Program-made: the position numbers and the translations under genes
Part shown: positions 1-22,147 of the stretch, one piece after another
Layout: the number at the start of each line of letters is the position of its first letter
Position numbering within the stretch: the stretch's first letter is position 1
DNA from: a virus
DNA: 23,127 nucleotides
Direction: 5' to 3' (one strand)
IMG/VR virus record: IMGVR_UViG_3300025781_000082
Coordinates: 1-23,127 of that record
The notes under the pieces: model-generated
The model's database searches: none
Seen by the model: only the letters and a program-made list of their open reading frames with translations
What the model was told of the DNA's origin: nothing

Positions 1-20
1 ACACAGTAGCGTCGAGAACC

Positions 21-755
21 GTGCCGCATGACATCTTTTTCATCAGCTATCAAGAACCCTATGCACAGGAAAACTTCAATCGCTTGCAGTCTCGCTTCCC
101 GCGAGCTCAACATGTGAGCGGTATCAAAGGCATACATAAAGCTCATTTGCGCTGCGCTGAGCTGAGCAGCACACCCATGTTCTGGACGGTTGATGCTGAT
201 ACCATTGCAGACAACAGCTTTGGTTTTGATTACCATCCGCCAGATTATGACAAGCAATATCTCCATCTATGGCACAGCCGCAATCCTGTGAACGGTCTGG
301 AATACGGTTGGGGCGCAATCAAGCTCTGGCCCACGAGGTTGGTGCGAGAGTTCAAATCCAACTGGTTAGATTTTACTACGACGGTTGGCAACATCAAGAT
401 CATTCCAGATGTGGTAGCTACTACCAAATATAACTGCGATGAGCTGGGCTCATGGCGTAGCGGCTTCAGAGAAGCTGTGAAACTCTGCGTAAACGTGCAG
501 AACGGCGATCATCTAGAAAGCATGGAACGACTGATGGTCTGGTGCACTGTAGATAACGGTGCAGAATATGCAGAAGCCAGCATGCAGGGTGCTAGAGCAG
601 GAATAGCATACTATCTGGATTGGCGTGAATCGTTCAGCGCAGGTTCATTGAAAAACATAAACGATTTTGATTGGCTCATGGAAATGTTTAATAATCGTGA
701 ACGCCATCTGGAACCGCCAACGCGATCTAACCTGCTGTCTGCACTGAGAGGATGA
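21..755 (+). CDS. GT-A-like putative glycosyltransferase, paralog 1 of 3 (possibly 5' truncated)
   Basis: A 244-aa protein that resembles a nucleotide-sugar glycosyltransferase of GT-A type. It opens with a short beta strand (DIFFISYQEP), followed by an acidic VDADT motif at about residues 57-61 that could be the metal-binding DxD. The C-terminal half carries W-R-S-G-F-R-E and W-C-T-V motifs shared with the next two genes, so the three are tandem paralogs. The GTG at 21 fits the length of paralog 2, but the frame is open to the window edge, so the true start may lie upstream. The stop is followed one base later by the ATG of the next gene. Family membership is inferred from the overall pattern; donor, acceptor and activity are unknown. 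Confidence 0.7.
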   Translation: MPHDIFFISYQEPYAQENFNRLQSRFPRAQHVSGIKGIHKAHLRCAELSSTPMFWTVDADTIADNSFGFDYHPPDYDKQYLHLWHSRNPVNGLEYGWGAIKLWPTRLVREFKSNWLDFTTTVGNIKIIPDVVATTKYNCDELGSWRSGFREAVKLCVNVQNGDHLESMERLMVWCTVDNGAEYAEASMQGARAGIAYYLDWRESFSAGSLKNINDFDWLMEMFNNRERHLEPPTRSNLLSALRG

Positions 756-756
756 T

Positions 757-1446
757 ATGTACGATATCGTATTCATCAGCTATGAGGAATCAAATGCTGA
801 GGAAAATTGGAAGCGACTGAAATCGCGATTTCCCATAGCCAAGCGGCTGCATGGTATCACCGGAATACACATGGCTCACATCGTGGCCGCTACCATGGTC
901 AGTACAGACATGTTCTACTGCGTAGACGGTGACGCTGTGATAGATGACGCGTTTGCTTTTGATCACGTGGTACCTGACCATCAGCTTGATCATGTGCATG
1001 TGTTCAGAGCTAGGAATCCAATCAACGATTTGGTATATGGATATGGTGCGGTCAAGCTGCTGCCAACGCTAGATGTTCGTCGCTTGGTTGACCGAGATTT
1101 CAAACCGGACATGACCAGCAGCATCAATAGAAAATACAAGGTGGTGCATCAGCTTTCCAACCTCACTGCATTCAACACTGATCCATATAACACGTGGCGC
1201 AGTGCCTTCCGTGAATGTGCAAAGCTGGCCAGCGGTGTGATAGATGGTCAAGTGAATTCCGAGACACAGCAGCGTTTGGAAACATGGTGCACCGTGGGAC
1301 AAGGCAGAGAGTACGGACATTGGTGCCTGCTTGGTGCACAAGCTGGCAGGCAATTTGGGTTGGACAGCAGAGGCACTGATCAATTGATGAAGATCAACGA
1401 TTGGTCTTGGCTAAGACAACGTTATGAGATGGATGGTCTGGCATGA
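757..1446 (+). CDS. GT-A-like putative glycosyltransferase, paralog 2 of 3
   Basis: A 229-aa paralog of its two neighbours, starting almost directly with the first beta strand (DIVFISYEES). A purine-rich GAGAGG lies 5-6 bases before the ATG. The VDGDA motif at about residues 56-60 is the candidate DxD. Downstream it keeps the W-R-S-A-F-R-E and W-C-T-V-G motifs and the final I-N-D-W-S-W-L segment found in the other copies. It overlaps the next gene by 4 nt (ATGA). No signal peptide or membrane segment is visible, so it should act in the cytoplasm. The assignment to glycosyltransferases comes from fold-like pattern and context with methyltransferases; it could be another GT-A-fold nucleotidyltransferase. 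Confidence 0.75.
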   Translation: MYDIVFISYEESNAEENWKRLKSRFPIAKRLHGITGIHMAHIVAATMVSTDMFYCVDGDAVIDDAFAFDHVVPDHQLDHVHVFRARNPINDLVYGYGAVKLLPTLDVRRLVDRDFKPDMTSSINRKYKVVHQLSNLTAFNTDPYNTWRSAFRECAKLASGVIDGQVNSETQQRLETWCTVGQGREYGHWCLLGAQAGRQFGLDSRGTDQLMKINDWSWLRQRYEMDGLA

Positions 1447-2312
1447 GCGAGTTTTGGTTTCGCGATCTAGAGATTTTCTATATCAGTTACGATGAACCCA
1501 ACTGTGAAGAAAACTGGAGGAACGTCACTTCTGTGTTGCCTCATGCGCGACGCGTGCATGGCGTAAAGGGATTTGAAACAGCACACAAAACCTGCGCCAT
1601 GCAGTCTCTGACCGAGCGCTTTGTTACGATCGATGGAGACAATTGGCTGTTACCAGAAGCTGCTGACACGCTGCTGAATGACACTGGCATGGAAGATGTG
1701 GTTTTCAGCTTCAAGAGCAAGAATGCCATCAATGGATTGGAATACGGCAACGGTGGTCTCAAGTGCTGGAACAGAAACATATTGTTGAATAGCAGCACAC
1801 ACGAGAGCAGCAACACTACCGATTTCTGCTGGGCCTTGCGCTACTATCAGATAGATGTGTTGGGCAGCATCAACGTCAACAACGCTACGCCGTACCAAGC
1901 CTGGCGAGCAGGTTACCGAGAAGGCATCAAGATGAGCTATCTCGACGGCGTGCCTATGAAAAATCCAATAACAGAAATCACATTGCTGCACAAGGGCAAT
2001 GCCAGCAAGCTAAACCTATGGATGACGGTAGGTAGAGACGTTGAAAACGGTGCATGGGCCATGCTGGGAGCGAGACAGGGATTCCACGAACTGTATTCAG
2101 GTGTGGTTGAAAACACAGTCATCAATGATTATGATTGGTTTGATCGGCATTGGACCAAATCATCTCGGGTAAACCTTGAGCCTGCACTAGAAAGATACAG
2201 CAGTCTGTTGCAAGACCAGTTCAATCTTTTCGTTCCTGAGCTAGACAGCAGCACCAGCAAGTGGATCAAGGCCAACTATATGCACCCGCCTAGAAAAGGC
2301 CTGATGTTATGA
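1443..2312 (+). CDS. GT-A-like putative glycosyltransferase, paralog 3 of 3
   Basis: A 289-aa protein, the longest and most diverged of the three paralogs. It has about ten extra N-terminal residues before the IFYISYDEP strand, an IDGDN candidate DxD at about residues 63-67, and an extra C-terminal tail of about 50 residues after the shared I-N-D-Y-D-W-F segment. The W-R-A-G-Y-R-E and W-M-T-V-G motifs and the L-G-A-R-Q-G segment match the other copies. It overlaps both neighbours by 4 nt, so translation is coupled. The different tail suggests a different acceptor or partner. The function is inferred only to the level of a putative sugar transferase. Confidence 0.72.
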   Translation: MSEFWFRDLEIFYISYDEPNCEENWRNVTSVLPHARRVHGVKGFETAHKTCAMQSLTERFVTIDGDNWLLPEAADTLLNDTGMEDVVFSFKSKNAINGLEYGNGGLKCWNRNILLNSSTHESSNTTDFCWALRYYQIDVLGSINVNNATPYQAWRAGYREGIKMSYLDGVPMKNPITEITLLHKGNASKLNLWMTVGRDVENGAWAMLGARQGFHELYSGVVENTVINDYDWFDRHWTKSSRVNLEPALERYSSLLQDQFNLFVPELDSSTSKWIKANYMHPPRKGLML

Positions 2313-3166
2313 TAAGCGATCTCAAGAACAAGGATGTTCTGCAGAAGCTGGCTAACGACGTTGATGTGCTTGAGTTCGTCATCAAGCTATCTCCTGATGA
2401 ACTAGAATCATTCGTCGCTATCACATCGTGGTCGCCTGCCATACTGGTCAAGCTGCGCAATCAACCAGCGCATCTCAGAGTCTTGCATCACATGTGGAAC
2501 TTGGTACCCATGCGCGATGAGACTTTCATACGCAATTTCTTCGAGATATACGAGTACCCCGGTGCCAACAAAGAAAGCATACTGGATGCTTTTAGCCGAG
2601 GCCAGATAGACAGCAAGATGTGGTTGATCAACACGCTGATAAGGCTTGACATGGACCTAGGGCGCATTTGGATCATGTGCGGATGGATAGGGTCTCTGGC
2701 TTATCTCATGTTCAAGAAGAAGACTTATCTTAACTTTGATTCCATACGTAGCTTTGATATAGATCCAATCTGCACGGATCTAGCAGACATGCTGAATAAA
2801 CAAGAAGTCAAACAGGATTGGTTGTTCAAAGCCAGCACGGCTGATGTCATGCAGCTGCAGTATGATGACCATTTTTGGTACACAAAGAAATCAGACGGAT
2901 CTCTTGAACGAGATTTTGGATCAGCTGATACCATCATCAATACCAGCTGTGAACACTTGGTGGATTTTGATTCATGGTATGCCAACATTCCTCAGGGCAA
3001 GCTGTTGGTATTGCAATGCAGCAGCCATGATAGCTACGAGGGACATGTCAACAACATGGACAGCGTCTATGAACTGGCGTCTCGAGCAAGCATGAAGCGA
3101 GTCCTATATAAAGGTACGCTGGACTGTGGTACATACCAACGACACATGCTCATAGGTAGGAAGTGA
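2309..3166 (+). CDS. Class I methyltransferase-like protein, paralog 1 of 2
   Basis: A 285-aa protein whose C-terminal half looks like a Rossmann-fold SAM-dependent methyltransferase. Residues about 119-133 hold a motif-I-like strand and turn (G-R-I-W-I-M-C-G-W-I-G). S-F-D-I-D-P at about 148-153 supplies the acidic residue expected to bind the SAM ribose, and A-D-T-I-I-N-T-S-C-E-H at about 206-216 fits motif IV. The first 110 residues are helical and of unknown role. It is about half identical by eye to the next gene, so the pair arose by tandem duplication. The ATG overlaps the upstream stop (ATGA). The substrate is unknown; the preceding glycosyltransferase-like genes suggest the same product. 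Confidence 0.68.
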   Translation: MISDLKNKDVLQKLANDVDVLEFVIKLSPDELESFVAITSWSPAILVKLRNQPAHLRVLHHMWNLVPMRDETFIRNFFEIYEYPGANKESILDAFSRGQIDSKMWLINTLIRLDMDLGRIWIMCGWIGSLAYLMFKKKTYLNFDSIRSFDIDPICTDLADMLNKQEVKQDWLFKASTADVMQLQYDDHFWYTKKSDGSLERDFGSADTIINTSCEHLVDFDSWYANIPQGKLLVLQCSSHDSYEGHVNNMDSVYELASRASMKRVLYKGTLDCGTYQRHMLIGRK

Positions 3167-4020
3167 TCATGGATCTAGGTGATAAAGACGTGCTGCTGAG
3201 GTTGCAGGCTCATCCAGAGACGCTGCAGTTCGTGATGAAACTGACTGATACTGAACTGAAGAGCTTTGCACAGATATTGGATTGGCCAGCACCTAGATTG
3301 GCTAGATTGCGCGATCAACCGTGGCATGCTGGTATATTGCACAAGATGTGGGACTTGGCTGCAGACAGAGAATCATTCTTCAAGACCTATCTCAGCATCT
3401 ACGATACAGCTGCAGACAGCGTGAACGTGTTGGATGCCTTCAGCCAAGGGCAACTGGACAGCAAGCGCTGGCTCATTGACACTGCGATCGGCTTGGGTAT
3501 ACCACTTGGCAGGACTTGGGTGTTGTGTGGATGGATAGGCACGCTGTCTTATCTCATGTTCACTAGATCAGATGATCTCAAATTGACATCTGTGAGGAGC
3601 TTTGACATAGATCCAAACTGTGAGGAGCTGGCAGAAAAGCTCAACAAGGAAAACGTCAAGGCAGGATGGCAATTCAAAGCGTTTACCAAAGACGTGAACC
3701 TGCTGGACTATGATTGCTTTGAATGGAGCGTTTGGAGCACAGTCAACAATCGCATGAGCCATCCCATACAGGATGCTGCGGATACGATCATAAACACCAG
3801 CTGCGATCACATGGGTTCTGACAGATCTTGGTGGGATCGCATACCAGCTGGCAAGTTGGTGATACTGCAGAACAACAACTGGCATGAAAATGACCAACAT
3901 GACAACAGCACCACTGATCTTGACAGTTTCAAGGCCATGTATCCTTTTGGTGAATTGCTGTATGCTGGACAGTTAGACTGTACACTGTATCAGCGTTTCA
4001 TGCTGATAGGACGTAAATGA
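3163..4020 (+). CDS. Class I methyltransferase-like protein, paralog 2 of 2
   Basis: A 285-aa tandem paralog of the preceding gene, matching it from the first residues (a D-L-x-x-K-D-V start) to the terminal L-I-G-R-K. It keeps the motif-I-like V-L-C-G-W-I-G-T-L-S-Y at about 120-130, S-F-D-I-D-P at about 146-151 and A-D-T-I-I-N-T-S-C-D-H at about 206-216. The GTG at 3163 is chosen over the ATG at 3169 because it gives a 4-nt GTGA overlap and aligns with the start of paralog 1. Differences cluster in the region between motif IV and the C-terminus, which may set substrate choice. A methyltransferase is the best reading, but the glycine-poor motif I is unusual. Confidence 0.68.
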   Translation: MIMDLGDKDVLLRLQAHPETLQFVMKLTDTELKSFAQILDWPAPRLARLRDQPWHAGILHKMWDLAADRESFFKTYLSIYDTAADSVNVLDAFSQGQLDSKRWLIDTAIGLGIPLGRTWVLCGWIGTLSYLMFTRSDDLKLTSVRSFDIDPNCEELAEKLNKENVKAGWQFKAFTKDVNLLDYDCFEWSVWSTVNNRMSHPIQDAADTIINTSCDHMGSDRSWWDRIPAGKLVILQNNNWHENDQHDNSTTDLDSFKAMYPFGELLYAGQLDCTLYQRFMLIGRK

Positions 4021-4262
4021 CCTCTGTGATTGATTCATTGACTGTTAGGCAGCTGCAGACAGAAGCCGCACGAGTCCTAGCCAGTGGACAGGGATTCGGC
4101 AACCATGAATTGGTGCAGTTCAATCAAGCAGCACATCATGACAGCCATGCATGGTATTGCAGTGTGATAGCTTGGTATGTAAGTAAATATGGCGACCTAC
4201 CAAGCAGGACGGGACCTGGGACTGCTGTCAAGCTGTTGTTGGATGCAAATCATGATCTATGA
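4017..4262 (+). CDS. Small protein of unknown function, coupled to radical SAM gene
   Basis: An 81-aa protein, not recognised. Its ATG overlaps the previous stop by 4 nt and its 3' end overlaps the radical SAM gene by 11 nt, so it is a coupled member of the cassette. It contains a helix-like N-terminal half (T-V-R-Q-L-Q-T-E-A-A-R-V-L-A-S-G), a His-rich H-H-D-S-H-A-W segment and a single Cys. There is no signal peptide, membrane segment or double-glycine leader. A small protein directly upstream of a radical SAM/SPASM enzyme is reminiscent of peptide-modification clusters, but the composition is that of a small folded domain rather than a clear precursor peptide. Confidence 0.6.
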   Translation: MTSVIDSLTVRQLQTEAARVLASGQGFGNHELVQFNQAAHHDSHAWYCSVIAWYVSKYGDLPSRTGPGTAVKLLLDANHDL

Positions 4263-5352
4263 TTATCAGGATATCAACACCGTTCATCTCGAGATAACGG
4301 ACAAGTGCAATGCCAGCTGTCCCATGTGTGGTCGCAACAAGTTTGGTGGGCCAGAGAACGAACACTTGCCACAGACAGAACTGAGCCTCGCTGATATACA
4401 GCAGATCATGCCTGAGGATTTCGTGCGCAGGCTCAACAGGCTTTACATGTGCGGCAACTATGGCGATCCTATCGTGGCAAATGATACATTGGAAGTTTTT
4501 GCTTGGCTGCGGGAGATAAATCCCAACATCAAGCTGGGCATACATACCAATGCCAGCGCACGCACTCCTGCGTGGTGGACTAACCTTGGCAAGCTGCTCA
4601 GTCGCAAGGGCGATTATGCCAAGTTTGGACTAGACGGTCTGGCTGATACCAACCACATCTATAGGCGCGGTACCAACTGGCAAAAGATCATGGATAATGC
4701 GCAGGCATTCATAGATGCTGGTGGCATAGCTCAATGGGAGTTCATAGTGTTCAAGCACAACGAGCATCAGATAGAAGATGCTCGCAGGCTCAGTGAACAG
4801 ATGGGATTCCAGCAGTTCCGTACCAAGAAGACCGGGCGCTTCTTCAGCAACACCAAGCTGCAGGGCAAGGACAGCCAGCCAGTTTGGAGCCGCAATGGCA
4901 TGGTTGAATACCACATAGAAAAACCAGACAACGCAGAATATCACAATGACAGCTTGGTCAATGAGCAGTCGCTGGTTGATCAGTTTGGCAGCATGCAGGG
5001 ATACCTCGATCAGACCTGTGTCAAGTGCAAGGTATCAGAGGACAAGAGCCTTTATATCAGCGCGGAAGGACTAGCCATGCCCTGCTGTTGGACAGCTAAC
5101 CAGCTTTATGTGTGGTATTGGCCCTACAAGCAAAGCGAGATCTGGAAGCTGCTAGACTATGACACTGATCACGTAAATGCTATCAAAAACCCGCTGGAAT
5201 CTATTGTAAATGGTAGTTATTTCAATAAGATAGCTGACAGCTGGTCGCAGCCAAGCATCACTGATGGCAAGCTGCGAGTATGCGCTAAAACATGCGGTTC
5301 TGGCTTCGATCAATTTGGCAGCCAGTTCAAGCAGAACGAGAGAGTAGCATGA
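4252..5352 (+). CDS. Radical SAM protein with SPASM-like C-terminal cysteines
   Basis: A 366-aa radical SAM enzyme. C-x3-C-x2-C (C19, C23, C26) would hold the [4Fe-4S] cluster that cleaves S-adenosylmethionine to a 5'-deoxyadenosyl radical. M-C-G-N-Y-G-D-P at about 66-73 takes the place of the GGE segment. The C-terminus has further cysteines in SPASM/twitch style (C256, C259, C278-C279, C344, C348) that may bind an auxiliary cluster. The ATG at 4252 is preferred to one at 4189 because the latter adds 21 residues that overlap the upstream gene and look non-coding. It is coupled 4 nt to the second radical SAM gene. SPASM proteins usually modify peptides or carbohydrates; the substrate is unknown. 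Confidence 0.85.
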   Translation: MIYDYQDINTVHLEITDKCNASCPMCGRNKFGGPENEHLPQTELSLADIQQIMPEDFVRRLNRLYMCGNYGDPIVANDTLEVFAWLREINPNIKLGIHTNASARTPAWWTNLGKLLSRKGDYAKFGLDGLADTNHIYRRGTNWQKIMDNAQAFIDAGGIAQWEFIVFKHNEHQIEDARRLSEQMGFQQFRTKKTGRFFSNTKLQGKDSQPVWSRNGMVEYHIEKPDNAEYHNDSLVNEQSLVDQFGSMQGYLDQTCVKCKVSEDKSLYISAEGLAMPCCWTANQLYVWYWPYKQSEIWKLLDYDTDHVNAIKNPLESIVNGSYFNKIADSWSQPSITDGKLRVCAKTCGSGFDQFGSQFKQNERVA

Positions 5353-6746
5353 CAGAATTACCAAGCAAAACCTTCTGTGCGTTGCCCTGGGTGCATCTCA
5401 GCAGCCGTCCAGATGGAGCCATGCGAGTGTGCTGCACAGCCAATGCCAGCAGCGTTCAAGATCCAGACAGCACCAAGAAGAGCGGCGGTGGTCAGATAGG
5501 AGTGCTGCGCACAGCTGATGGCACACCTGCCAATCTCAACAACAGCACGCTGATGGAAGCATGGAACAATGACTACATGCGCAATGTGCGCAAGATGATG
5601 CTGCGAGGAGAGAAGCCTCCCAGCTGTCTCAAGTGCTACAAGGAAGAAGAAGCCGGCGTCCAGAGCAAGCGCAACTGGGAAACAGCCTATTGGATTGATG
5701 AGCTGGGCCTGGATGACATCATAAGCGATACAACTGAAGACGGTGCTGTCAGTCCGCGGATACGCTATCTTGATCTGCGCCTGGGCAGCAAGTGCCAGCT
5801 GGCCTGCGTGATGTGCAGCCCGCACGACAGCAGCGGATGGGTCAAAGAATGGAACGAGATGTATCCTCAGATCCAAAACAACAGGCTTAAAGAAAGCTGG
5901 AACTGGGCAGACAAGGGCAAGCAGCATGGTGCCAGCTACAACTGGCACATGAATAATCCAGAGTTTTGGTCGCAGCTTTACGATCAGATACCTCACATGA
6001 AGCAGCTGTACTTTGCTGGCGGTGAGAGCACTATCATTGAAGAACATTACACGCTGTTGGAAGAAGTGATCAAGCGAGGTCATGCCAAGGACATAGAGCT
6101 GCGCTACAACAGCAATGCTGTGGAACTACCGCAGAGGCTGTTTGATTGTTGGAGCCACTTCCGCAGAGTCAAGTTCCATTTCAGCATGGACAGCTTTGGT
6201 GACAAGAACGATTACATACGTTATCCCAGCAACTGGGATCAGCTGGTTGCCAACATGCACAAGCTGGACAACACGCCTGACAACGTGATGGTAACCACGG
6301 CTGTCACGGTCATGGCGCTGAACATCTACTACATCCCAGACATGATCAAGTGGAAGCTGAGCCAAAACTTCAAGAAATTCAACTCCTGGCCAAACGGTGC
6401 TGGCATGATCAATTGGCATCTGGCCTATTGGCCTCCACAGCTAAACGTCAAGGTGCTGCCCAAGTGGGCCAAGCAGATGGTGCGAGAAAAGTTCGAGGAA
6501 TTCTTTTTGTGGCTTGAAGATAATTGGCAAAACACCACTGGTGCTGCACAATCGGGTATAAGCAAGGAAGACTTCTTCAAAGCTGGTTATGGTATAAAGA
6601 GATTGCGCGGTCTTTTAGATTTCATGGACAAAGAAGATTGGAGCGAACGCATGCCAGAGCTGCAGGAGTGGATCAAGCTGTTGGATCGCCAGCGTGGCTT
6701 GAGCTTTGTGGATACCTTTCCAGAGATATCTGGTTTGTTAGATTAG
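5349..6746 (+). CDS. Twitch/SPASM-type radical SAM protein
   Basis: A 465-aa radical SAM protein with an unusual order of domains. The N-terminus carries SPASM/twitch-like cysteines (C10 in a C-A-L-P-W context, C28-C29, C93, C96). The radical SAM core follows, with C-x3-C-x2-C at C149, C153 and C156, preceded by an L-D-L-R-L strand, and A-G-G-E-S at about 222-226. The ATG at 5349 overlaps the previous stop (ATGA); an upstream ATG at 5292 is rejected because it would overlap by about 60 nt. Proteins of this N-terminal-CxxPW type are known from phages and sugar or peptide clusters, mostly without assigned reactions. As last gene of the cassette it probably works with the preceding radical SAM enzyme. 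Confidence 0.85.
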   Translation: MTELPSKTFCALPWVHLSSRPDGAMRVCCTANASSVQDPDSTKKSGGGQIGVLRTADGTPANLNNSTLMEAWNNDYMRNVRKMMLRGEKPPSCLKCYKEEEAGVQSKRNWETAYWIDELGLDDIISDTTEDGAVSPRIRYLDLRLGSKCQLACVMCSPHDSSGWVKEWNEMYPQIQNNRLKESWNWADKGKQHGASYNWHMNNPEFWSQLYDQIPHMKQLYFAGGESTIIEEHYTLLEEVIKRGHAKDIELRYNSNAVELPQRLFDCWSHFRRVKFHFSMDSFGDKNDYIRYPSNWDQLVANMHKLDNTPDNVMVTTAVTVMALNIYYIPDMIKWKLSQNFKKFNSWPNGAGMINWHLAYWPPQLNVKVLPKWAKQMVREKFEEFFLWLEDNWQNTTGAAQSGISKEDFFKAGYGIKRLRGLLDFMDKEDWSERMPELQEWIKLLDRQRGLSFVDTFPEISGLLD

Positions 6747-6756
6747 GAGTAAAAGG

Positions 6757-7182
6757 ATGCAATGGGGAATGCCCGGTACCATAAATAGTAGTGTAAGTTC
6801 AACAGGGATCACCGTAATGGCACCTTCCCCCAAGAAGATAGTTGACAAGGCAGCTGATGCTGCCTGGGACGAGATTTTTGATAGTCTAAGCATAGAAAAC
6901 GAACCACCAACACGATACATACGCAGCGTGATCATACAGACCAAAGATGGCAGCACCATCAAGGTAAGTGGCAAGCATTTTGCAGAGATAATAGAGCAAG
7001 AACGAGAGCTCAGTCCTGAAGAAAGCGAGATACGCAGCTGCAGGATGAGCATCAATTTCCCCAAGTTGCGTTCCGACATTGATAGCTGGGCTGCTGATCT
7101 ATTGGGCAAGCTTAACACAGCTGATGCATTCAAGGTCACTGTAAAGCCAAAGAGCAAACGTACCGCAAAACGTAAAAATTAG
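6757..7182 (+). CDS. Hypothetical protein, basic C-terminus
   Basis: A 141-aa protein, not recognised. The ATG at 6757 has a good AGGAG 6 bases upstream. An in-frame ATG at 6817 (giving 121 aa, beginning M-A-P-S-P-K-K) also has an AGGGA at a spacing of 8 and lies about 30 nt downstream of an ATAAATA late-promoter-like sequence, so it may be the start from a second transcript. The protein has a helical acidic stretch (about 30-45), a beta-rich segment (about 50-65) and a lysine-rich end (K-P-K-S-K-R-T-A-K-R-K-N). It is not overlapped with the cassette before it (10-nt gap), so it may be an independent gene. Confidence 0.65.
   Translation: MQWGMPGTINSSVSSTGITVMAPSPKKIVDKAADAAWDEIFDSLSIENEPPTRYIRSVIIQTKDGSTIKVSGKHFAEIIEQERELSPEESEIRSCRMSINFPKLRSDIDSWAADLLGKLNTADAFKVTVKPKSKRTAKRKN
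6781..6787 (+). promoter_or_regulatory. ATAAATA, candidate T4-type late promoter
   Basis: ATAAATA matches seven of eight bases of the T4 late promoter core TATAAATA. It lies inside the N-terminal codons of the 6757 reading frame and about 30 bases before an in-frame ATG at 6817 that has its own Shine-Dalgarno sequence. A chance match is possible. Confidence 0.3.
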
Positions 7183-11096: not shown

Positions 11097-11119
11097 ACAG
11101 GCTGCATTAAGCAGCCTGT
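11097..11119 (-). other. Perfect stem-loop at the end of the VWA gene
   Basis: ACAGGCTGC (11097-11105) and GCAGCCTGT (11111-11119) form a perfect 9-bp, GC-rich stem with a 5-nt loop that contains the TAA of the VWA gene. No U-run follows, so it is not a standard terminator. It separates the VWA gene from the ribosome site of the next gene and could mark an mRNA processing or stability point. Confidence 0.5.
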
Positions 11120-12378
11120 CCGATCTCTTCAACACCTGTGTCGTGGTCATAGTACGCATACTGACCAAACGGTGGCTTCACGCGAGTCTTGTGTCCCTCT
11201 GTGATGATCCACAGCGTGTCACAGTAGCTTTCTGGGCCCCAACTACCAAATGGATAACCGTCAGTGAAGATCACTGCTTTCTTGGGCTCAATCTGTTCCT
11301 CCATCCAGTACTTCCAGAATGCCATGAACTCAGTACCACCACCACCCTTGCACTCGTAGGTCAGCAAGTCATCTGCGCTGTCCTTGGTGAACTTTTGGAA
11401 GTTGTAGACCTGCGTGTCAAAGCAAAGCACGCTGATGGTGAAGTCATTGTACATCTGCATGATGCCATAGACCTCGCTGAGGAAGTCCTTGGCCATGTCA
11501 TCGCTGATTGAACCTGACATGTCAATGGCGATAGCGATGTCAATGGTATCATCCTTGTCCAGAGTTGGAAGGAAGATGCCACCATACATGTGCTTGCGGT
11601 TAGGACGCATCCAAGTAAAGTCATCAGTGATGCAGCTCTGGATGTTCTGTTGCAAGAGATCGCGCCAATTGATCTTTGGTTCGATGAGATCGTCTACGAG
11701 ACGTTGCAAGCTGGCTGGCATCTTGCCTGCCGCTGCCTGCGCAGCCTGCAGCACCTTGTTCTTCATCTCTTCGCGGATCTTCTTGAGCTCTTCCTCGCTT
11801 ACCTTGATGGGATTGCCATCCTTGTCCACAGCCTGGCGACCCTTGCCTTTGCCATTGCCGTCTGCACCAAGCTCGAGATGCACGTCTAACGTCATCTGCT
11901 TCTTGACCTTGCGCTTCTCGAGGTCATCATACACTGCCTCAGAAGTCCAACCCAGATACTTGTTATCGTAGAGGCCCACACGCTGGTTGGTCTCGCCCTT
12001 CTCGTCAACGTCGGCGACCTTCTTGGTAGGCATCTTACCGATCTTATCTGTTACCAGCATGCCGTTGATCACGTAGTCGTTGGCCATGTTCCACCAGCTG
12101 GGATCGCGGTGCGTGCGGCGACCAAAGTGGTCAAGTGCAACGTGCAGCACCTCGTGGCACAGCACGAACTTGACCTCGTCTACGTCGAGGTCCTTGAAGA
12201 AGTCACGGTTGTAATAGATGTTGCGGCCGTCCACAGCAGCTGTGGTGCACCATCCTGCATCAGTGGCATCTACCAGCGGCAGCTGCATGGTGAGCGTGCC
12301 AAAGAACGGTGTTTTGAACAGCAGTTCTAAGCGTGCCTGGCTGATCTTCTTGGCGATTGGATCTCGTTGAAATGACAT
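11107..12378 (-). CDS. VWA-domain protein with metallopeptidase-like N-terminus (MoxR partner)
   Basis: A 423-aa two-domain protein of the DUF2201 type. The N-terminal domain has H-E-V-L-H (75-79) as an HExxH zinc motif plus D-H-F-G-R-R, so it may be a metallopeptidase. A charged linker (about 150-215) leads to a C-terminal von Willebrand A domain with a complete MIDAS: D-M-S-G-S (286-290), Thr in G-G-G-G-T-E (349) and F-T-D-G (371-374). VWA proteins of this kind work with MoxR AAA+ ATPases, here the next gene upstream at 13361-14548, as a chaperone-like machine for assembly or metal insertion. AGGAGC lies before the ATG and an extended -10 promoter is at 12411-12438. The protease activity is inferred, not proven. 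Confidence 0.85.
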   Translation of the reverse strand: MSFQRDPIAKKISQARLELLFKTPFFGTLTMQLPLVDATDAGWCTTAAVDGRNIYYNRDFFKDLDVDEVKFVLCHEVLHVALDHFGRRTHRDPSWWNMANDYVINGMLVTDKIGKMPTKKVADVDEKGETNQRVGLYDNKYLGWTSEAVYDDLEKRKVKKQMTLDVHLELGADGNGKGKGRQAVDKDGNPIKVSEEELKKIREEMKNKVLQAAQAAAGKMPASLQRLVDDLIEPKINWRDLLQQNIQSCITDDFTWMRPNRKHMYGGIFLPTLDKDDTIDIAIAIDMSGSISDDMAKDFLSEVYGIMQMYNDFTISVLCFDTQVYNFQKFTKDSADDLLTYECKGGGGTEFMAFWKYWMEEQIEPKKAVIFTDGYPFGSWGPESYCDTLWIITEGHKTRVKPPFGQYAYYDHDTGVEEIGQAA

Positions 12379-12410
12379 GTGTGAGCTCCTGTGACATATC
12401 TGTTACCGTT

Positions 12411-12438
12411 ACAATAGCATGTCTATATGATCTGTCAA
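12411..12438 (-). promoter_or_regulatory. Extended -10 sigma70-type promoter of the VWA gene
   Basis: On the minus strand TTGACA (12438-12433) is followed by a 16-base spacer ending in TGC and then TATTGT (12416-12411). A start about 7 bases further gives a leader of about 26 bases with AGGAGC. Four other promoters in the window share this exact layout. Confidence 0.75.
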
Positions 12439-12445
12439 CCGCTAA

Positions 12446-12468
12446 GATCGGTAAATACTGTGCCGATC
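12446..12468. promoter_or_regulatory. Inverted repeat between divergent genes
   Basis: GATCGG (12446-12451) and CCGATC (12463-12468) form a 6-bp inverted repeat with 11 bases between, 8 bases upstream of the VWA -35 and 48 bases before the homing endonuclease ATG. It may be an operator for either gene or part of the old homing site. Confidence 0.3.
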
Positions 12469-12515
12469 GCGACCCTGCCAGGTCCACCGGCTCTATAACC
12501 TAAGGGAGTTACAGC

Positions 12516-13343
12516 ATGTATTGCGTGTATTTTACTATTTACAAGGGCAGTCGTCTACCACCATTTTACGTGGGCAGCACCAAGATAGCCAAGATTGCGC
12601 GGGGTTATCACGGCAGTGTTAGCAGTGCCCTGTGGGGCTCAATCTGGAAGCAAGAGATCCGAGAAAATCCCCACCTATTCATGACCTTGATCATACCAGG
12701 CCAGATCAGACACACAGCTGCTGAGATCTTGGATCTTGAACTGGCATGGCAGCAGGCATTTGATGTTGTTGAAGATATTTGCTTTATCAACCAAGCTTTT
12801 GCCAAAGCAGGGTTCTGCTCAACCCCAGAGTCTGCTCGCAAGGCTGCGGCCACTAGAAAACGCAAAGGTACAGGGGTATGTAAACCAGAAACGAAGCAAA
12901 AGATACGCGAAGCCAAACAAGGTAAGCAGACAACAGTGCTCTCAGCCGAATCAAGAAAGAAATTGAGCATATCGCTGACTGGGATTGCTCGCACACCCGA
13001 GTGGTTGGATAAGATGAGTAAATCACAGATGGGTAAGAAACACAGCGAAGAGACTAGAGCTAAGATACGAGATTCCCATACAGGACTTTCTCCTACACCA
13101 AAATCCATAGCCAAGAGGCTAGCTACCATACAGGCCAACGGTGGTTATCAGCACAGCGCCGAGACCAAGCGCAAGATAGGCGAGGCCAACAAAGGCCAAG
13201 TGCGTGCTCCGCAATCAGCGGAGTCTAACGAGAAGCGCCGACAAAAGCTCGCAGGTAAGATTAGGTCTCCTGAGGCCATGGCCAAATACCATGCTACAAT
13301 AGCAGCAAAGAAGGCGGGCACATCCGCACCCGCCTCCCAATAA
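12516..13343 (+). CDS. GIY-YIG homing endonuclease with NUMOD3 repeats
   Basis: A 275-aa free-standing homing endonuclease. The N-terminal GIY-YIG nuclease domain shows C-V-Y-F (3-6) and F-Y-V-G-S-T (17-22) as the two signature strands, R29-G-Y-H-G, and E75 in L-D-L-E-L-A-W as the probable metal-binding Glu. From about 100 on there are seven or eight NUMOD3-type DNA-binding repeats of the form S-x-E-x-x-x-K-x-x-x-x-x-G-K, such as S-E-E-T-R-A-K-I-R-D-S. GGGAG sits 7 bases before the ATG. It is the only plus-strand gene among minus-strand genes, inserted between MoxR and VWA. It should cut an allele lacking the insertion and spread by repair. It lacks the C-x2-C zinc tail often found in relatives. 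Confidence 0.9.
   Translation: MYCVYFTIYKGSRLPPFYVGSTKIAKIARGYHGSVSSALWGSIWKQEIRENPHLFMTLIIPGQIRHTAAEILDLELAWQQAFDVVEDICFINQAFAKAGFCSTPESARKAAATRKRKGTGVCKPETKQKIREAKQGKQTTVLSAESRKKLSISLTGIARTPEWLDKMSKSQMGKKHSEETRAKIRDSHTGLSPTPKSIAKRLATIQANGGYQHSAETKRKIGEANKGQVRAPQSAESNEKRRQKLAGKIRSPEAMAKYHATIAAKKAGTSAPASQ
13313..13334. terminator. Weak hairpin at the end of the homing endonuclease
   Basis: GGCGGG (13313-13318) and CCCGCC (13329-13334) form a 6-bp GC-only stem with a 10-nt loop within the last codons of the homing endonuclease, between it and the convergent MoxR gene. There is no clear U-run on either strand, so termination is only a possibility. Confidence 0.3.
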
Positions 13344-13360
13344 CCCGTTGATATCACTGA

Positions 13361-14548
13361 TTAAATTGAGGGAATTAAATCAGAATATCTGCGACAAAAT
13401 TCCACCCAGTTCTTGAGCTTAGGTGCCTTGATAGGCAGCTTGTAGGTACCCAAGATGGTCTTGGCACCCATCACAGCCAGCTCGTCCTCGAAGTTGTCCA
13501 TGATGAAGCGGAAGAACACGTCTACCTTGCTCTGGAATGCATCGTCTGCCTTAGAATCTGTCTTGGCATTCTTAGCAGCATCGTTGAGCTCATAGCACAG
13601 CGCGGTGGTCAGCGCATACATCACGTCGATCTGCTTGCTGGTCAGCTTGGTGACCTTGCCTTCCAAGATGTCCTTGGCGTTGGGCAAGTTGGCTGCCTGC
13701 TTGCGATAGGTCATGAACTTGATGCCTGGACCTTCGCCAACTGTACCCTTGATGAGATCGCCCAAGACTTCGTCAGGCAAGCGCACGTCTACCATGTCGC
13801 CGTCCTTGTTAGGCTCCTGCAGCAACTCTGACGCAAAGTACCACGAACGAGGCGTAGCGAACGCATAGCTGTCTGTGCTGGGCTGGAAGTTCATCAAGTC
13901 GTTGGGTTGGAAGCTGAGATAACCCACCACGTCCTTGTGCACGCGGTTAAGCAGTGCCCATTCTTTCCAGTCGTCGATGCTGACGTCCAGCGTGACGTGC
14001 GAGAAGCGATTGGCCAACGGCATGGGCATGTTATATGCAACACCCTTGTCTTTCACGCGGTTACCAGCAGCAACGATCACCACGTCCTTGGGCAGCTCGT
14101 AAGTGCCAATCTTGCGATTGAGGATCACCTGGTAGGTAGCTGCTTGAACGCTGGGCGGTGCTGCGCTCATCTCGTCAAAGAACACCAATGCACGGCTGTT
14201 GGGGTCAGTGGGCAAGTCCGACGGATTGGACCACTTGAACACTTTCTCGGTCAGCGGCACATTCTGTTCATCGCGCACCAAGTTGCCTTCTGCGTCATAG
14301 ACCTTGACCTCAGCGAGATAAGGGATACCGCGCACGTCCGTTGGCTCCATCAGCGGCAAGCGGATGTCGATCAACGGGCGATTCTGTTCGCGTGCAACCT
14401 CAGCAACGATATCAGATTTACCAATGCCCGGAGGGCCCCAAACGAAGATTGGACGCTTGCGGTTGATGCTGTGTTGCAACGCCATCTTAAGGCGGGACGG
14501 AGAGATACCCGTGTTCTCGAGAACGCGGTTCTTAGTAGCTGTAGCCAT
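13361..14548 (-). CDS. MoxR-type AAA+ ATPase
   Basis: A 395-aa AAA+ ATPase of the MoxR group. The Walker A GPPGIGKS is at 38-45, Walker B L-V-F-F-D-E at 121-126, and the sensor 1 segment V-A-A-G-N-R at 159-164. After Walker A the P-L-M-E-P-T-D-V-R-G-I-P motif (65-76) is typical of MoxR. MoxR ATPases act with VWA proteins in maturation of metal enzymes, membrane complexes or stress functions; the VWA partner is the next gene on the same strand, separated by the inverted homing endonuclease. CobS-like cobaltochelatase subunits of cyanophages are related, but no cob gene is here. AGGAGT precedes the ATG and an extended -10 promoter lies at 14575-14602. Confidence 0.9.
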   Translation of the reverse strand: MATATKNRVLENTGISPSRLKMALQHSINRKRPIFVWGPPGIGKSDIVAEVAREQNRPLIDIRLPLMEPTDVRGIPYLAEVKVYDAEGNLVRDEQNVPLTEKVFKWSNPSDLPTDPNSRALVFFDEMSAAPPSVQAATYQVILNRKIGTYELPKDVVIVAAGNRVKDKGVAYNMPMPLANRFSHVTLDVSIDDWKEWALLNRVHKDVVGYLSFQPNDLMNFQPSTDSYAFATPRSWYFASELLQEPNKDGDMVDVRLPDEVLGDLIKGTVGEGPGIKFMTYRKQAANLPNAKDILEGKVTKLTSKQIDVMYALTTALCYELNDAAKNAKTDSKADDAFQSKVDVFFRFIMDNFEDELAVMGAKTILGTYKLPIKAPKLKNWVEFCRRYSDLIPSI

Positions 14549-18826: not shown

Positions 18827-19738
18827 TTATCGTCCTATCACGTTGCTGAAGATCCAGCAGTGTATGCGAGCTGCTACATTGTAGCCGCGCTTGAGCGCTT
18901 CTTCTGTGACCCACATCTGCACGTCTTCTTGTTCTTCTCTGGTGGCACCAACTGGCATGATCCACACTGGCCAGTTCACATCTACAGCGCGGAACGCATC
19001 AACTGCACGTTCAAGCTCGTCCCAGGTCAAGGGATTCTTGTCAAGCACGAACTTGAGCTGACCAACGTTGCTGATCAAGCGATATTCTCGCACGATGGCT
19101 GGCATGATAGCATCGTCCCACTTTTCACCACTGGTACCCAGCTTGGGGCTGCAACTCCAGAACAGTTCGCCGTTGTACATGCCTTTGTTGGTGAAGAAAT
19201 CTGTGAATGCCTTGCGAGGTGCTTGGGTGCCGTTGGTCTCGATGGTGATGTGTCGAGGACTGTCGTTCTGCATGCGCAGAGTCTGCATGATGTCCACGAT
19301 GCCAGTCTGGCTCATCATGGGTTCACCGCCAGTGAATGCCAAATGCACGTCTTGTCCGCTGCGAGGATGTATGAAGCTGCTGCCCTGCAACCTGCTGCGG
19401 AAATCAGCGCAGATCTCTTCTGCTGTGCTCTGATGCGCTAGATGCCCATAGCGAGTGCTCCAGCTGTAGCTGCTGTCACAGCCAGTTGTCCACACAGGTA
19501 AGTCATCCATCTTGCTGATGTTGTTGGCCTTGGGATCATAGTCCAAGTAGTCCAGCTTGTAGGTGCTGGGATCTCTGGGATTGGCTTGTCCGAAGCCATT
19601 GCAGTTGAGATTGCAACCCCAGAAACGGATCCATACTGTTGGATGTCCGCCATAGCGACCTTCGCCCTGTATGGTTGGAGTGGGGCCTGCGTTGCCACCA
19701 AATATCTCGCTGTAACGGTACTTCTTGGCAGTGCTCAT
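18827..19738 (-). CDS. queE: QueE-like 7-carboxy-7-deazaguanine synthase
   Basis: A 303-aa radical SAM enzyme of the QueE type, which converts 6-carboxy-tetrahydropterin to 7-carboxy-7-deazaguanine. T-I-Q-G-E-G (22-27) and R-F-W-G-C-N-L-N-C (38-46) are typical QueE motifs; T-G-G-E-P (136-140) is the radical SAM GGE motif, and E-T-N-G-T follows. The cluster cysteines appear to be C42, C46 and C87, because about 40 residues are inserted before T-T-G-C-D-S-S-Y. The protein is longer than bacterial QueE (about 210-250 aa). AAGGAG sits 5 bases before the ATG, which overlaps the upstream stop (ATGA). With folE and queD in the window it points to 7-deazaguanine synthesis. Confidence 0.88.
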   Translation of the reverse strand: MSTAKKYRYSEIFGGNAGPTPTIQGEGRYGGHPTVWIRFWGCNLNCNGFGQANPRDPSTYKLDYLDYDPKANNISKMDDLPVWTTGCDSSYSWSTRYGHLAHQSTAEEICADFRSRLQGSSFIHPRSGQDVHLAFTGGEPMMSQTGIVDIMQTLRMQNDSPRHITIETNGTQAPRKAFTDFFTNKGMYNGELFWSCSPKLGTSGEKWDDAIMPAIVREYRLISNVGQLKFVLDKNPLTWDELERAVDAFRAVDVNWPVWIMPVGATREEQEDVQMWVTEEALKRGYNVAARIHCWIFSNVIGR

Positions 19739-19953
19739 GGTTGCTCCTTGCTCAGCTTATAGATCATTATAGCTTGATCCAGCACTTCGCGCAAGGCTGG
19801 ATTGGTTTCACTGGCAGCGACGATGTCATGCCACAGATAGAGATGCTCGTAGGGATCTGTTGGGTTGCCCTTTACCAGATGGCGATCCATGTGTCCTAGC
19901 TCTCTGCCATAGACTGTGACGCCTTTGTCTGGGCTTTCGTATATCAATGGCAT
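19735..19953 (-). CDS. Hypothetical small protein
   Basis: A 72-aa protein, not recognised. It lies between an AbrB-like gene and queE, with one-base (TGATG) and 4-nt overlaps, so it is co-translated with both. The first half has H-M-D-R-H-L-V-K-G-N-P and Y-E-H-L-Y-L-W-H-D; the second is one long helix ending A-I-M-I-Y-K-L-S-K-E-Q-P. The many His residues could bind metal, but nothing confirms this. Confidence 0.62.
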   Translation of the reverse strand: MPLIYESPDKGVTVYGRELGHMDRHLVKGNPTDPYEHLYLWHDIVAASETNPALREVLDQAIMIYKLSKEQP

Positions 19954-20150
19954 CAGGGACTAACAGGACCTTGTGGTTCAACCTTGCGCACTGTGATGTG
20001 CCCAGTGCTGTCGTCCACGTCCCAGTTGATGGTGTCGCCTTCTTGCCAACCAAGCTCTTCCATGAGATCATCGGGGAACTGCAGGAAAAGCTCGCCATTC
20101 TCGTCCTCTTGTATATCAACTACCATGGTGCGCTTGGTATCAGTCATCAT
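19953..20150 (-). CDS. AbrB/MazE-like (SpoVT-AbrB) small protein
   Basis: A 65-aa protein with the pattern of a swapped-hairpin AbrB DNA-binding domain: E-L-F-L-Q-F-P-D-D-L-M-E-E-L-G-W-Q-E-G-D-T-I-N-W (20-43), then D-D-S-T-G-H-I-T-V-R-K. The 'F-P-D-D-L-x-E-x-L-G-W-x-x-G-D' part is the AbrB signature. Family members are transcription regulators or antitoxins; no toxin gene is adjacent, so a regulator or a structural use of the fold is more likely. ATG at 20150 overlaps the previous stop by 11 nt. Confidence 0.72.
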   Translation of the reverse strand: MMTDTKRTMVVDIQEDENGELFLQFPDDLMEELGWQEGDTINWDVDDSTGHITVRKVEPQGPVSP

Positions 20151-20373
20151 TTACTCCGATGCCTAGTGTAGCTGGCGAATGATCCAAATATGGTTCGCCA
20201 GTCTTGCTGGTATAAAAATATGCGTCTTCATCGTTGATAGTGACCATGAGATCACTGTGATAGATGTCATAGTCAGTGAAGGTGCCGTCTGGTTGGTACA
20301 CTCTGAATACCATAGATCCGCCTATGGGCAACAACACACCTGACATGCCATCGGCACTCACTGGTTTCGTCAT
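20140..20373 (-). CDS. Hypothetical small beta-rich protein
   Basis: A 77-aa protein, not recognised. It reads as a beta sandwich or barrel: G-V-L-L-P-I-G-G-S-M-V-F-R-V-Y, D-Y-D-I-Y-H-S-D-L-M-V-T-I, and A-Y-F-Y-T-S-K-T-G. No cysteine and no catalytic motif. The ATG overlaps the preceding stop by one base (TGATG), and its own stop overlaps the AbrB-like gene. Confidence 0.6.
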   Translation of the reverse strand: MTKPVSADGMSGVLLPIGGSMVFRVYQPDGTFTDYDIYHSDLMVTINDEDAYFYTSKTGEPYLDHSPATLGIGVNDD

Positions 20374-20921
20374 CAGTCGTCATCCTTGCTCAGCGCACGC
20401 CAGACCTTGGCCTGCTCACGCATGTTCTCGTATTCTTGTTCCATGTGCCTCAGCTTGCCCAACGTGACTTCCATGATGGCTGAGATAGCAGCATCAACTG
20501 CGTCATCGTAGGCATCGCCAAGCTGGCGCATGGGTTCGTAATCGCTTTCTAGGCTGCGGTCTCGGCGCATGATACCCATGAGGCGTTCCAAGCGTTCAAG
20601 GCGTGCAAACACGCCGTCATCGGCATTACTACTGCCACCTTGGAAGATATCACCATCTGCGCTGATGCGCATGACTTCTTTACCGCCGATACCTGTCCAA
20701 CTAGTCGCACCACCTGTGTTGGTAGTGAGCACTTGATTGGCGTAGCCCGTTCCCCCGCCTGACACCGTTATGTATGGTGTAGTGGTGCTGGTATAACCAG
20801 CACCCGTTGATGTTAATGTGATTGCGCCAACCCCACCACCGCCACCTCCGCCGATGGTAGCGGTAGTGTAGCTTCCTGTGGTGATGTTTGTGAGTGGAGA
20901 AACTGTTCCTATCGCTGCCAT
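20373..20921 (-). CDS. Glycine-rich fibre-like protein with helical C-terminus
   Basis: A 182-aa protein in two parts. Residues 1-100 are Gly/Thr/Ser-rich with a run of seven glycines (24-30) and strand-like repeats ending in G-G-x-G-Y and G-G-A-T-S-W, as in phage tail-fibre or whisker proteins; V-M-R-I-S-A-D-G-D-I-F (83-93) is a common fibre segment. Residues about 105-178 are helical (E-R-L-E-R-L-M, then a long charged helix). This combination suggests a virion surface protein with a trimerising tail, or a fibre chaperone. One base separates its ATG from the stop of the gene before it. The exact role is unknown. Confidence 0.68.
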   Translation of the reverse strand: MAAIGTVSPLTNITTGSYTTATIGGGGGGGVGAITLTSTGAGYTSTTTPYITVSGGGTGYANQVLTTNTGGATSWTGIGGKEVMRISADGDIFQGGSSNADDGVFARLERLERLMGIMRRDRSLESDYEPMRQLGDAYDDAVDAAISAIMEVTLGKLRHMEQEYENMREQAKVWRALSKDDD

Positions 20922-20922
20922 G

Positions 20923-21222
20923 TTAATACCTCAGGCTGTGCTGCATGATGATGCTTGTAAGCTCTGGTCCAAGCTCAGCATCGTCGCGCACGATGTAGAG
21001 ATCGCGTTGGTGTTCACCGCGGCGCTCATCCCAGTTGCTGATCTCTATGACCTTGCCACCATGCGCAGCGTGAATGCGTAGAGTAGCTGCTCCTTGGCTG
21101 CTTAGCTCATGACCATTGCCTGCTGCGCTGCCTGCCACAGTCTTGATCAGCCTTGGATTGTCGTCGTAATTGTCCCAGGCTTTCTTGGCTTGCCGTTGGA
21201 ACCACTTGTCAAACCATTTCAT
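20923..21222 (-). CDS. Hypothetical protein
   Basis: A 99-aa protein, not recognised by function, though similar small proteins starting M-K-W-F-D-K-W-F are frequent in marine phages as far as I recall. The N-terminus is aromatic and basic (W-F-D-K-W-F-Q-R-Q-A-K-K-A-W), the middle is beta-rich (A-A-T-L-R-I-H-A-A-H-G-G-K-V-I-E-I-S) and a strand D-L-Y-I-V-R-D-D follows. AGGTGA sits before the ATG, with a 4-base gap from the upstream stop. Confidence 0.68.
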   Translation of the reverse strand: MKWFDKWFQRQAKKAWDNYDDNPRLIKTVAGSAAGNGHELSSQGAATLRIHAAHGGKVIEISNWDERRGEHQRDLYIVRDDAELGPELTSIIMQHSLRY

Positions 21223-21226
21223 TTTG

Positions 21227-21577
21227 TCACCTTTTGCTAGCCTCGTCTATAAAGACTTGGTTGAAGCTTGTACCTTTTATATCATTACCCCAAGGTTTCC
21301 AACTGTGTCTACCATCTGCAGGATAGGTCTTGAGCATGTCTACTTCTCGCACTAGCTTGTCAACCATGCGTTTCAGTTCCTGTGCCTCTTTGCGGCTGTC
21401 TTCAAAACTTAGCCACATGTGACGGAACGGTCCAGTGTTCTTGCCTTCTGGGTCGTTGGTCAGTGCCACCATCATCACTAGGCTGTTCAGTGCCTGCTTG
21501 ACCTGCGGATTGTCACTGCCCAGTGCCGCATCGAACACATTGATCATGTTTTGAAAATCTGTTTCAGCATGAGTCAT
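21227..21577 (-). CDS. Hypothetical protein
   Basis: A 116-aa protein, not recognised. The ATG at 21577 overlaps the queD stop (ATGA); an upstream ATG at 21661 would fall inside queD and is rejected. The N-terminal half is a helical bundle (M-I-N-V-F-D-A-A-L-G-S-D-N-P-Q-V-K-Q-A-L) and a second helix R-K-E-A-Q-E-L-K-R-M-V-D-K-L-V follows. The end is less ordered (P-A-D-G-R-H-S-W-K-P-W-G-N-D). Being coupled to queD it could share its expression, but a role in deazaguanine synthesis is not shown. Confidence 0.68.
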   Translation of the reverse strand: MTHAETDFQNMINVFDAALGSDNPQVKQALNSLVMMVALTNDPEGKNTGPFRHMWLSFEDSRKEAQELKRMVDKLVREVDMLKTYPADGRHSWKPWGNDIKGTSFNQVFIDEASKR

Positions 21578-22068
21578 ATCAGTTCCTCGTTCCACTCCCT
21601 GTGACCTTCGCGGAAAGCCATGTTGGCCTGTGTCTCGCGCACTTCCACGCGATAGCACCATAAGCGTGCTGCTTCTCCTGGTCCCCAGAGATCTGGGATG
21701 TACACGCCGTTCACGTACTTGTACAGCATGTCAGCCAGACCTTCGCAGCCTAACTTGGGCAGGATAGTCAGCTTGGCCAGTTTCTTTGATTGCAACAGCT
21801 TGAACGTATCCATCTCAGGATCATCTTCAGCCACCAACAGCGTGTGATCAAACTGGTCTTCTAGGATCTTCTTGAGCTCCTTGAGACCGCCGTAGTCTGC
21901 TGCCCAGTTGCGCACATCCAGGTTGTCAGTGCCGAAGTAGAACTTCATTGAGAAGCTGTAACCGTGTATCATGTTGCAGTGGCTATCTGCTCGCCACTGG
22001 CGATAAGCGCAGGGAAATGCGTCGTGGTATTCTTTAGTGCTGGTGTACTTGTAAGTTACTGGTGTCAT
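21574..22068 (-). CDS. queD: QueD-like 6-carboxy-tetrahydropterin synthase
   Basis: A 164-aa member of the 6-pyruvoyl-tetrahydropterin synthase (QueD) family, which turns dihydroneopterin triphosphate into 6-carboxy-tetrahydropterin. The key block is S-H-C-N-M-I-H-G-Y-S-F (29-39), where C31 is the likely catalytic Cys and H35 a metal ligand; D-H-T-L-L (74-78) supplies the second catalytic region and E near G-C-E-G the pterin-binding Glu. Two canonical metal ligands differ: the usual HGH reads HGY, and the N-terminal His region reads F-P-C-A-Y. AGGAGC lies 6 bases before the ATG. It is flanked by folE upstream and coupled to a 116-aa unknown. Confidence 0.85.
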   Translation of the reverse strand: MTPVTYKYTSTKEYHDAFPCAYRQWRADSHCNMIHGYSFSMKFYFGTDNLDVRNWAADYGGLKELKKILEDQFDHTLLVAEDDPEMDTFKLLQSKKLAKLTILPKLGCEGLADMLYKYVNGVYIPDLWGPGEAARLWCYRVEVRETQANMAFREGHREWNEELI

Positions 22069-22085
22069 GGTCGTGCTCCTATGTT

Positions 22086-22114
22086 AGTGTACCATAGGCT
22101 GCAGAATTTGTAAA
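22086..22114 (-). promoter_or_regulatory. Candidate sigma70-type promoter of queD
   Basis: TTTACA (22114-22109), 17-base spacer, then TACACT (22091-22086), in the 79-base gap between folE and queD. It lacks the TGC of the five strong promoters. The -35 overlaps the 5' arm of a possible hairpin (AAGCGG 22113-22118, CCGCTT 22135-22140) that might end the folE transcript. Confidence 0.5.
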
Positions 22115-22147
22115 GCGGGGTGAAGCCGTAAGCGCCGCTTGTCATAC

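Follow-up and report, generated by a model that had tools for sequence, protein, structure and literature searches.

A putative saccharide-tailoring gene chain joined to tail-fibre genes in relatives of a probable T4-like phage fragment

The overlapping gene chain and its surroundings

The window analysed here is the entire IMG/VR record IMGVR_UViG_3300025781_000082 (23,127 bases), probably a genome fragment. Between positions 3 and 6746, eight open reading frames lie on the plus strand in an overlapping chain, followed by a ninth gene:

3-755, plus strand: GT1, C-terminal part only, holding a full GT-A domain and running off the window's left edge (478-aa ortholog at L004:108-1541)
757-1446, plus strand: GT2, a single GT-A-type domain with its DxD at 925-933 (58 relatives all keep D57 and D59)
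1443-2312, plus strand: GT3, a GT-A-type paralog of 289 aa that shares GT2's invariant columns
2309-3166, plus strand: MT1, predicted class I SAM-dependent methyltransferase (39-member family A5)
3163-4020, plus strand: MT2, paralog of MT1 (46% identity)
4017-4262, plus strand: SM, conserved 81-aa protein (27 invariant columns in 16 relatives)
4252-5352, plus strand: RS1, radical SAM (rSAM) enzyme by profile PF04055, CX3CX2C at 4306-4329, with C-terminal SPASM-like cysteines
5349-6746, plus strand: RS2, N-terminal-twitch rSAM enzyme by profile NF033640 and alignment A9, CX3CX2C at 5793-5816
6757-7182, plus strand: U9, 141 aa, conserved in the close-relative group (cluster c13, 11 loci)

GT1 and GT2 are separated by a 1-bp gap, and 4-nt overlaps occur at five junctions (GT2/GT3, GT3/MT1, MT1/MT2, MT2/SM and RS1/RS2). 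SM and RS1 overlap by 11 nt, given an RS1 start at ATG 4252, a start consistent with the 366 aa of relatives. An earlier, sequence-only reading had described an eight-gene coupled cassette beginning at position 21. Its strand, reading frames and every one of its junctions are reproduced from the ORF coordinates, but its GT1 start and its gene number do not hold. The gene does not begin with the GTG at 21; no stop interrupts its frame up to the left window edge, and contigs with near-identical neighbouring genes (L004, L005 and L007) encode a protein of 478 aa. Nor is the chain limited to eight genes. In relatives it extends 5′ to tail-fibre genes, the order in close relatives being fibre-type c18, c9, c8, c4, c4, c10, a 301-aa GT, GT1 and onward, with no large gaps and mostly with overlaps; on the 3′ side, U9 follows RS2 after 10 bp. 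The upstream c4 proteins carry an invariant D-x-D, but a profile comparison did not relate them to the GT family, and they are left unassigned to any family.

Most cassette genes with estimable dS gave dN/dS values of 0.05-0.22 against relatives, figures that are rough, as many dS values lie at or near saturation. The genes are under purifying selection, and the coupled cassette is real. T4-type late promoters (TATAAATA) were not found upstream of it.

Two other gene groups in the window lie on the minus strand. At 11107-14548, an AAA ATPase gene is paired with a DUF2201 VWA/metallopeptidase-like one (a MoxR/VWA-like pair), the two being split by a plus-strand NUMOD3 protein (12516-13343) that is possibly a homing-endonuclease-type insertion. 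The group at 18827-22834 comprises genes for a FolE-type GTP cyclohydrolase I, a PTPS/QueD-type protein and a 4Fe-4S protein read as QueE-like; it suggests that 7-deazaguanine (preQ0) is made, possibly to modify DNA.

Glycosyltransferase, methyltransferase and radical SAM families

Enzyme classes occur in multiples, as had been noted from the letters, and sequence identity shows paralogy among the GTs and between the MTs: GT1 is about 43-44% and GT3 about 30-32% identical to GT2, and MT2 is likewise a paralog of MT1. In its complete form GT1 has a full GT-A domain preceded by two degenerate GT-A half-domains; in HMM comparisons of the ortholog the half-domains score 113 and 52 bits and the full domain 299 bits. 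An AF2 model of the ortholog (57 sequences) reached pLDDT 91, and Foldseek comparison with the PDB returned 63 matches at E<=1e-3; the 50 listed are nearly all GT-A enzymes, with VIA Z values up to 11.1. On the strength of this model, GT1 has a GT-A glycosyltransferase fold and is predicted to transfer sugar. The SunS/ThuS glycosin S-glycosyltransferases, the WrtF fucosyltransferase and K4CP share the fold, but GT1 is only about 5-15% identical to them in aligned parts, a likeness of fold class only. A sequence search of the PDB with GT found no relatives, and no GT2 relatives were found among annotated phages. None of the window's proteins matches PF00535 (the Pfam GT2 family), and one of 58 relatives does so weakly (E 6e-4).

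The half-domains, each about 105 aa long, lie N-terminal to the full GT domain and align to the GT profile over its first half. Estimated from length, GT1-type proteins carry between 0 and 8 of them, and in one locus (L062) the DNA itself shows the array as tandem repeats of 309-312 bases. Both DxD aspartates are kept in 166/166 full GT domains, whereas the first is kept in 2 of 118 half-domains. Because the metal-binding aspartate is lost, we infer that the half-domains are non-catalytic; perhaps they hold the acceptor or partner enzymes. As a protein architecture, such runs of degenerate half-domains are themselves unusual.

The AF2 model of MT1 (pLDDT 90) gave 384 PDB matches at E<=1e-3 in Foldseek; the 50 listed are nearly all class I methyltransferases, with NodS the top structural match among them. 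As modelled, MT1 has a class I methyltransferase fold, and methyl transfer is predicted. SM is conserved over its full length in 16 relatives, with no variable core, and the copy in the window has one cysteine. Of 25 loci with orthologs of both RS1 and RS2, counted without dereplication, 23 contain SM. PDB sequence searches with MT and SM found no relatives; the low-E matches of SM were discounted, being to designed repeat proteins over 18-21 residues.

Profiles and cysteine motifs place RS1 and RS2 in the radical SAM superfamily. RS1 scores 37.5 bits against PF04055 (cut-off 29.5), and its CX3CX2C and C-terminal cysteines are invariant across phage and Bdellovibrionota alignment rows; its match to the SPASM profile is weak and below cut-off. 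RS2 scores 428.8 bits against NF033640 (cut-off 170) over nearly the full model, with 21.4 bits against PF04055, below cut-off. Its invariant cysteines are 10, 28, 29, 93 and 96, and 149/153/156 (alignment A9). Its auxiliary-type cysteines are thus N-terminal, and its SPASM match is also N-terminal (residues 10-97). SPASM and twitch domains are described as C-terminal extensions (PMC9012708), in contrast to the extra cysteines of RS2. RS2 is a strong member of the N_Twi_rSAM family (NCBIfam NF033640), whose name assigns no function, whereas RS2 here has a conserved gene partnership. No PDB chain matched RS2 in sequence. Together with the rSAM profiles, the GT-A and methyltransferase folds found by structure prediction for GT1 and MT1 bear out the enzyme classes proposed earlier.

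From PHROGs came rSAM labels for RS1 and RS2 only, with no informative match for the GT, MT and SM genes. Among annotated phages, RS2 has three relatives, all distant, and MT1 has one (30%), in Pelagibacter phage Mosig EXVC030M (L087). The Mosig cassette that includes this distant MT1 relative lies between tail-fibre genes and is annotated with MoaA-like rSAM proteins, a carbamoyltransferase, nitroreductases and a dioxygenase. This isolated pelagiphage is a possible experimental system.

Co-occurrence in phages and Bdellovibrionota

Related loci were taken as the best 80 of 403 IMG/VR stretches with GT2 relatives, and were thus recruited through GT2 similarity and not through MT or rSAM. Among 37 dereplicated viral loci of at least 9 kb, an MT-family gene is present in 33, a main-cluster rSAM gene in 34 and both in 30; in the dereplicated loci, MT lies directly 3′ of GT in 28 of 46 cases. 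Across ten larger records, matches to the three families (rSAM, GT and MT) mostly share common stretches. A 382-kb record has 13 rSAM matches within 29 kb (uniform-placement probability ~5e-13), and a 330-kb record has 14 within 41 kb. In G001 a second rSAM group is located elsewhere, and G006 and G008, with the same spacing, are probably near-copies that count as non-independent. Co-occurrence, which the sequence-only reading had put forward as a check, was examined in both phages and bacterial chromosomes; the families were clustered and scattering was not seen.

In the fibre clusters, matches were to tail-fibre families of PHROG and to the Peptidase_G2 chaperone domain. These clusters were seen in 14 of the 37 loci, in part because many loci stop short of them. 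A T4-type portal is present in 5 of 7 large relatives, and the source phage was probably large, as these are. Nucleotide-sugar genes near the cassette encode a UDP-sugar dehydrogenase, an epimerase and a DegT aminotransferase. Loci of 9 kb or more, taken without dereplication, hold 838 genes of at least 100 aa; only 5 of these encode one or more strongly hydrophobic segments and none encodes three or more. Genes with hydrophobic segments being nearly absent, no flippase, polymerase or lipid-linked export machinery was seen in these loci, and the lack of membrane export genes near the cassettes favours a cytosolic acceptor. The rSAM clusters of phages and Bdellovibrionota alike contain genes for QueC-like ATP-pyrophosphatases and Asp/Arg hydroxylase-like proteins (L063, L066, L083 and L161).

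In Bdellovibrionota MAGs the GT family is accompanied by MT and rSAM genes. A survey of 192 Bdellovibrionota genomes found RS2 orthologs (53-61% identical) in 10, the GT family in 11 and both in 8, an overlap with a hypergeometric probability of 2e-10, which ignores phylogeny and MAG contamination. RS2 orthologs in bacterial MAGs are 57-63% identical. In a tree rooted on distant rSAM proteins, the core phage RS2 sequences group in a single clade (100/98) that falls among those of Bdellovibrionota; the three MAG rows inside the clade may be binned phage. Nearby genes in the Bdellovibrionota loci encode GT2-family enzymes, a weak TMEM260-like match and an FAD oxidoreductase.

One Bdellovibrionales contig (L094, 1368-5779, minus strand) has c9, c8, c4, c4, a protein at the c10 position and GT in the phage order, with genes read as housekeeping on one flank. 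Across the 192 genomes, c9 and c4 occur in one (G178), where they are taken to be an acquired island. Since the core GT, RS2, RS1 and MT genes lack them in all but this genome, the upstream c9 and c4 proteins are dispensable for the core in Bdellovibrionota. The idea that the virion-type protein c9 is a universal acceptor was dropped as unsupported for the same reason. The GT family is found in Streptomyces and other bacteria as well, and no rSAM or MT partner was seen within 8 kb of the Streptomyces relatives. Dozens of Streptomyces genomes (among the Streptomyces and related loci L106-L148) have a GT-domain relative, next to a gene that by eye is GT-B-type-like.

Proposed function and comparison with known systems

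The sequence-only reading had proposed synthesis or decoration of a glycan, peptide or small molecule, with virion, phage DNA or host surface as the acceptor. The glycan option fits best, and DNA finds no support in the neighbourhood. We tentatively propose, at a probability of about 0.42, that the region is the distal part of a T4-like phage's tail-fibre (host-recognition) operon, which makes and attaches a modified saccharide. The GT-A glycosyltransferases, class I methyltransferases, RS1, RS2 and their partner SM would build and tailor the saccharide in the cytosol of the infected cell, giving a methylated, radical-modified product. This would then be attached to an acceptor, most likely a virion protein and above all the tail fibre encoded upstream. 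Cytosolic synthesis and transfer are proposed because of the nucleotide-sugar genes, the GT-A enzymes and the lack of membrane machinery, and the virion is favoured because the chain is linked to tail fibres. The data show directly the coupled genes and their purifying selection, the folds and active-site motifs, the co-occurrence and, in relatives, the tie to tail-fibre genes; which acceptor is used, how the steps are ordered and whether rSAM and methyltransferase chemistry acts on sugar are matters of inference. In the butirosin pathway, the twitch rSAM dehydrogenase BtrN acts on a sugar-like ring (PMC9012708); BtrN combines rSAM chemistry with an auxiliary cluster, and RS2 likewise is a predicted rSAM enzyme with auxiliary-type cysteines. 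Against our proposal, SPASM/twitch rSAM enzymes use peptides as well as sugars, the core set does without c9 and c4 in Bdellovibrionota, and the locus set was recruited through GT2, with tail-fibre clusters in 14 of 37 loci.

We hold the proposal as tentative because the Bdellovibrionota relatives point to an envelope glycan or another surface structure. The operon might instead remodel a host surface glycan such as the LPS O-chain during infection, stopping superinfection or adsorption to debris, with tailored sugars and transferases feeding the host's export machinery. The pelagimyophage study proposed such remodelling for the glycosyltransferases of its host recognition cluster (PMC7029224), and the gene neighbours of the module in the virion-less Bdellovibrionota would suit an envelope glycan. 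Membrane export, flippase and polymerase genes were not seen near the phage cassettes, however, and the chain is joined to tail-fibre genes; we regard host-glycan remodelling as unlikely, if a serious contender.

A further alternative is that the rSAM enzymes and methyltransferases modify a RiPP-like ribosomal peptide, SM being the precursor or carrier that the GTs glycosylate. SPASM-type rSAM enzymes often modify peptides (PMC9012708), SM lies between MT2 and RS1 and tracks with RS1 and RS2, and small proteins with Tat-signal-like N-termini (by eye) lie near rSAM genes in Bdellovibrionota loci. A precursor would be expected to pair a conserved leader with a variable core, whereas SM is conserved throughout, has a single cysteine in the window and found no match in the Bdellovibrionota loci L161 and L163, which makes this reading improbable. 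The chances seem slim that the operon makes a free small molecule (aminocyclitol- or deoxysugar-like) acting on host or competitors: rSAM, methyltransferase and GT genes alongside those for an aminotransferase and a dehydrogenase recall natural-product clusters, but no transporter was seen near the cassettes, three to four GTs of one family suggest a glycan chain, and the operon is linked to tail fibres. Phage GTs can glycosylate DNA, and the window has FolE-, QueD- and QueE-like genes, but hypermodification of phage DNA bases with sugar and methyl groups against restriction is very improbable, as those genes lie on the opposite strand 12-16 kb off, the cassette lacks base-modifying genes, relatives occur on bacterial chromosomes and the tail-fibre linkage would go unexplained.

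The presence of the core enzymes in large T4-like aquatic phages, just 3′ of the tail-fibre genes, and on Bdellovibrio-type chromosomes suggests a real pathway that decorates a surface or virion molecule. Bdellovibrio-type predators recognise prey through phage-tail-fibre-like MAT proteins (PMC10769870). More speculatively, and with the odds well against it, one rSAM/GT/MT pathway common to T4-like phages and Bdellovibrionota predators might make a modified sugar on prey- or host-recognition structures, the tandem dead GT-A half-domains serving as an acceptor grip of variable length. If the main proposal is right, the many unexplained rSAM genes that T4-like phages carry in marine and fresh waters would belong to one chemical pathway, tied to tail fibres and hence to host recognition, which phages and predatory bacteria would be shown to have in common. 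GT, MT, SM, RS1 and RS2 offer a concrete five-gene core for expression and assay.

A literature search of incomplete coverage, which is not proof of novelty, found nothing on this GT family, the half-domain arrays or a joint phage/Bdellovibrionota module, and no paper linking Bdellovibrio, radical SAM enzymes and these GTs. Decoration of virion proteins by phage-encoded GTs, as proposed here for the tail fibre, is known from mycobacteriophages, in which capsid and tail proteins are glycosylated (PMC12619734, citing Freeman et al. 2023); unlike the present system, no rSAM or methyltransferase partnership is mentioned in that source.

The closest known counterpart is the host recognition cluster (HRC) of pelagimyophages and cyanomyophages, a hypervariable island placed between VrlC and gp14, in which tail-fibre genes are joined by glycosyltransferases, nucleotide-sugar genes and rSAM cassettes, for which O-chain modification was proposed and in which GT8 is the most represented GT family (PMC7029224). 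As judged from relatives, the present region shares with the HRC its T4-like phage setting and these same elements; fibres, GTs and rSAM genes occur together in relatives, while the window itself ends inside GT1. The claim of an undescribed system therefore stands in part. The type of region is known as the HRC, whereas this GT family, the half-domain arrays, the GT-MT-SM-RS1-RS2 core and the Bdellovibrionota relatives do not appear in the HRC description as far as the accessible text goes (PMC7029224).
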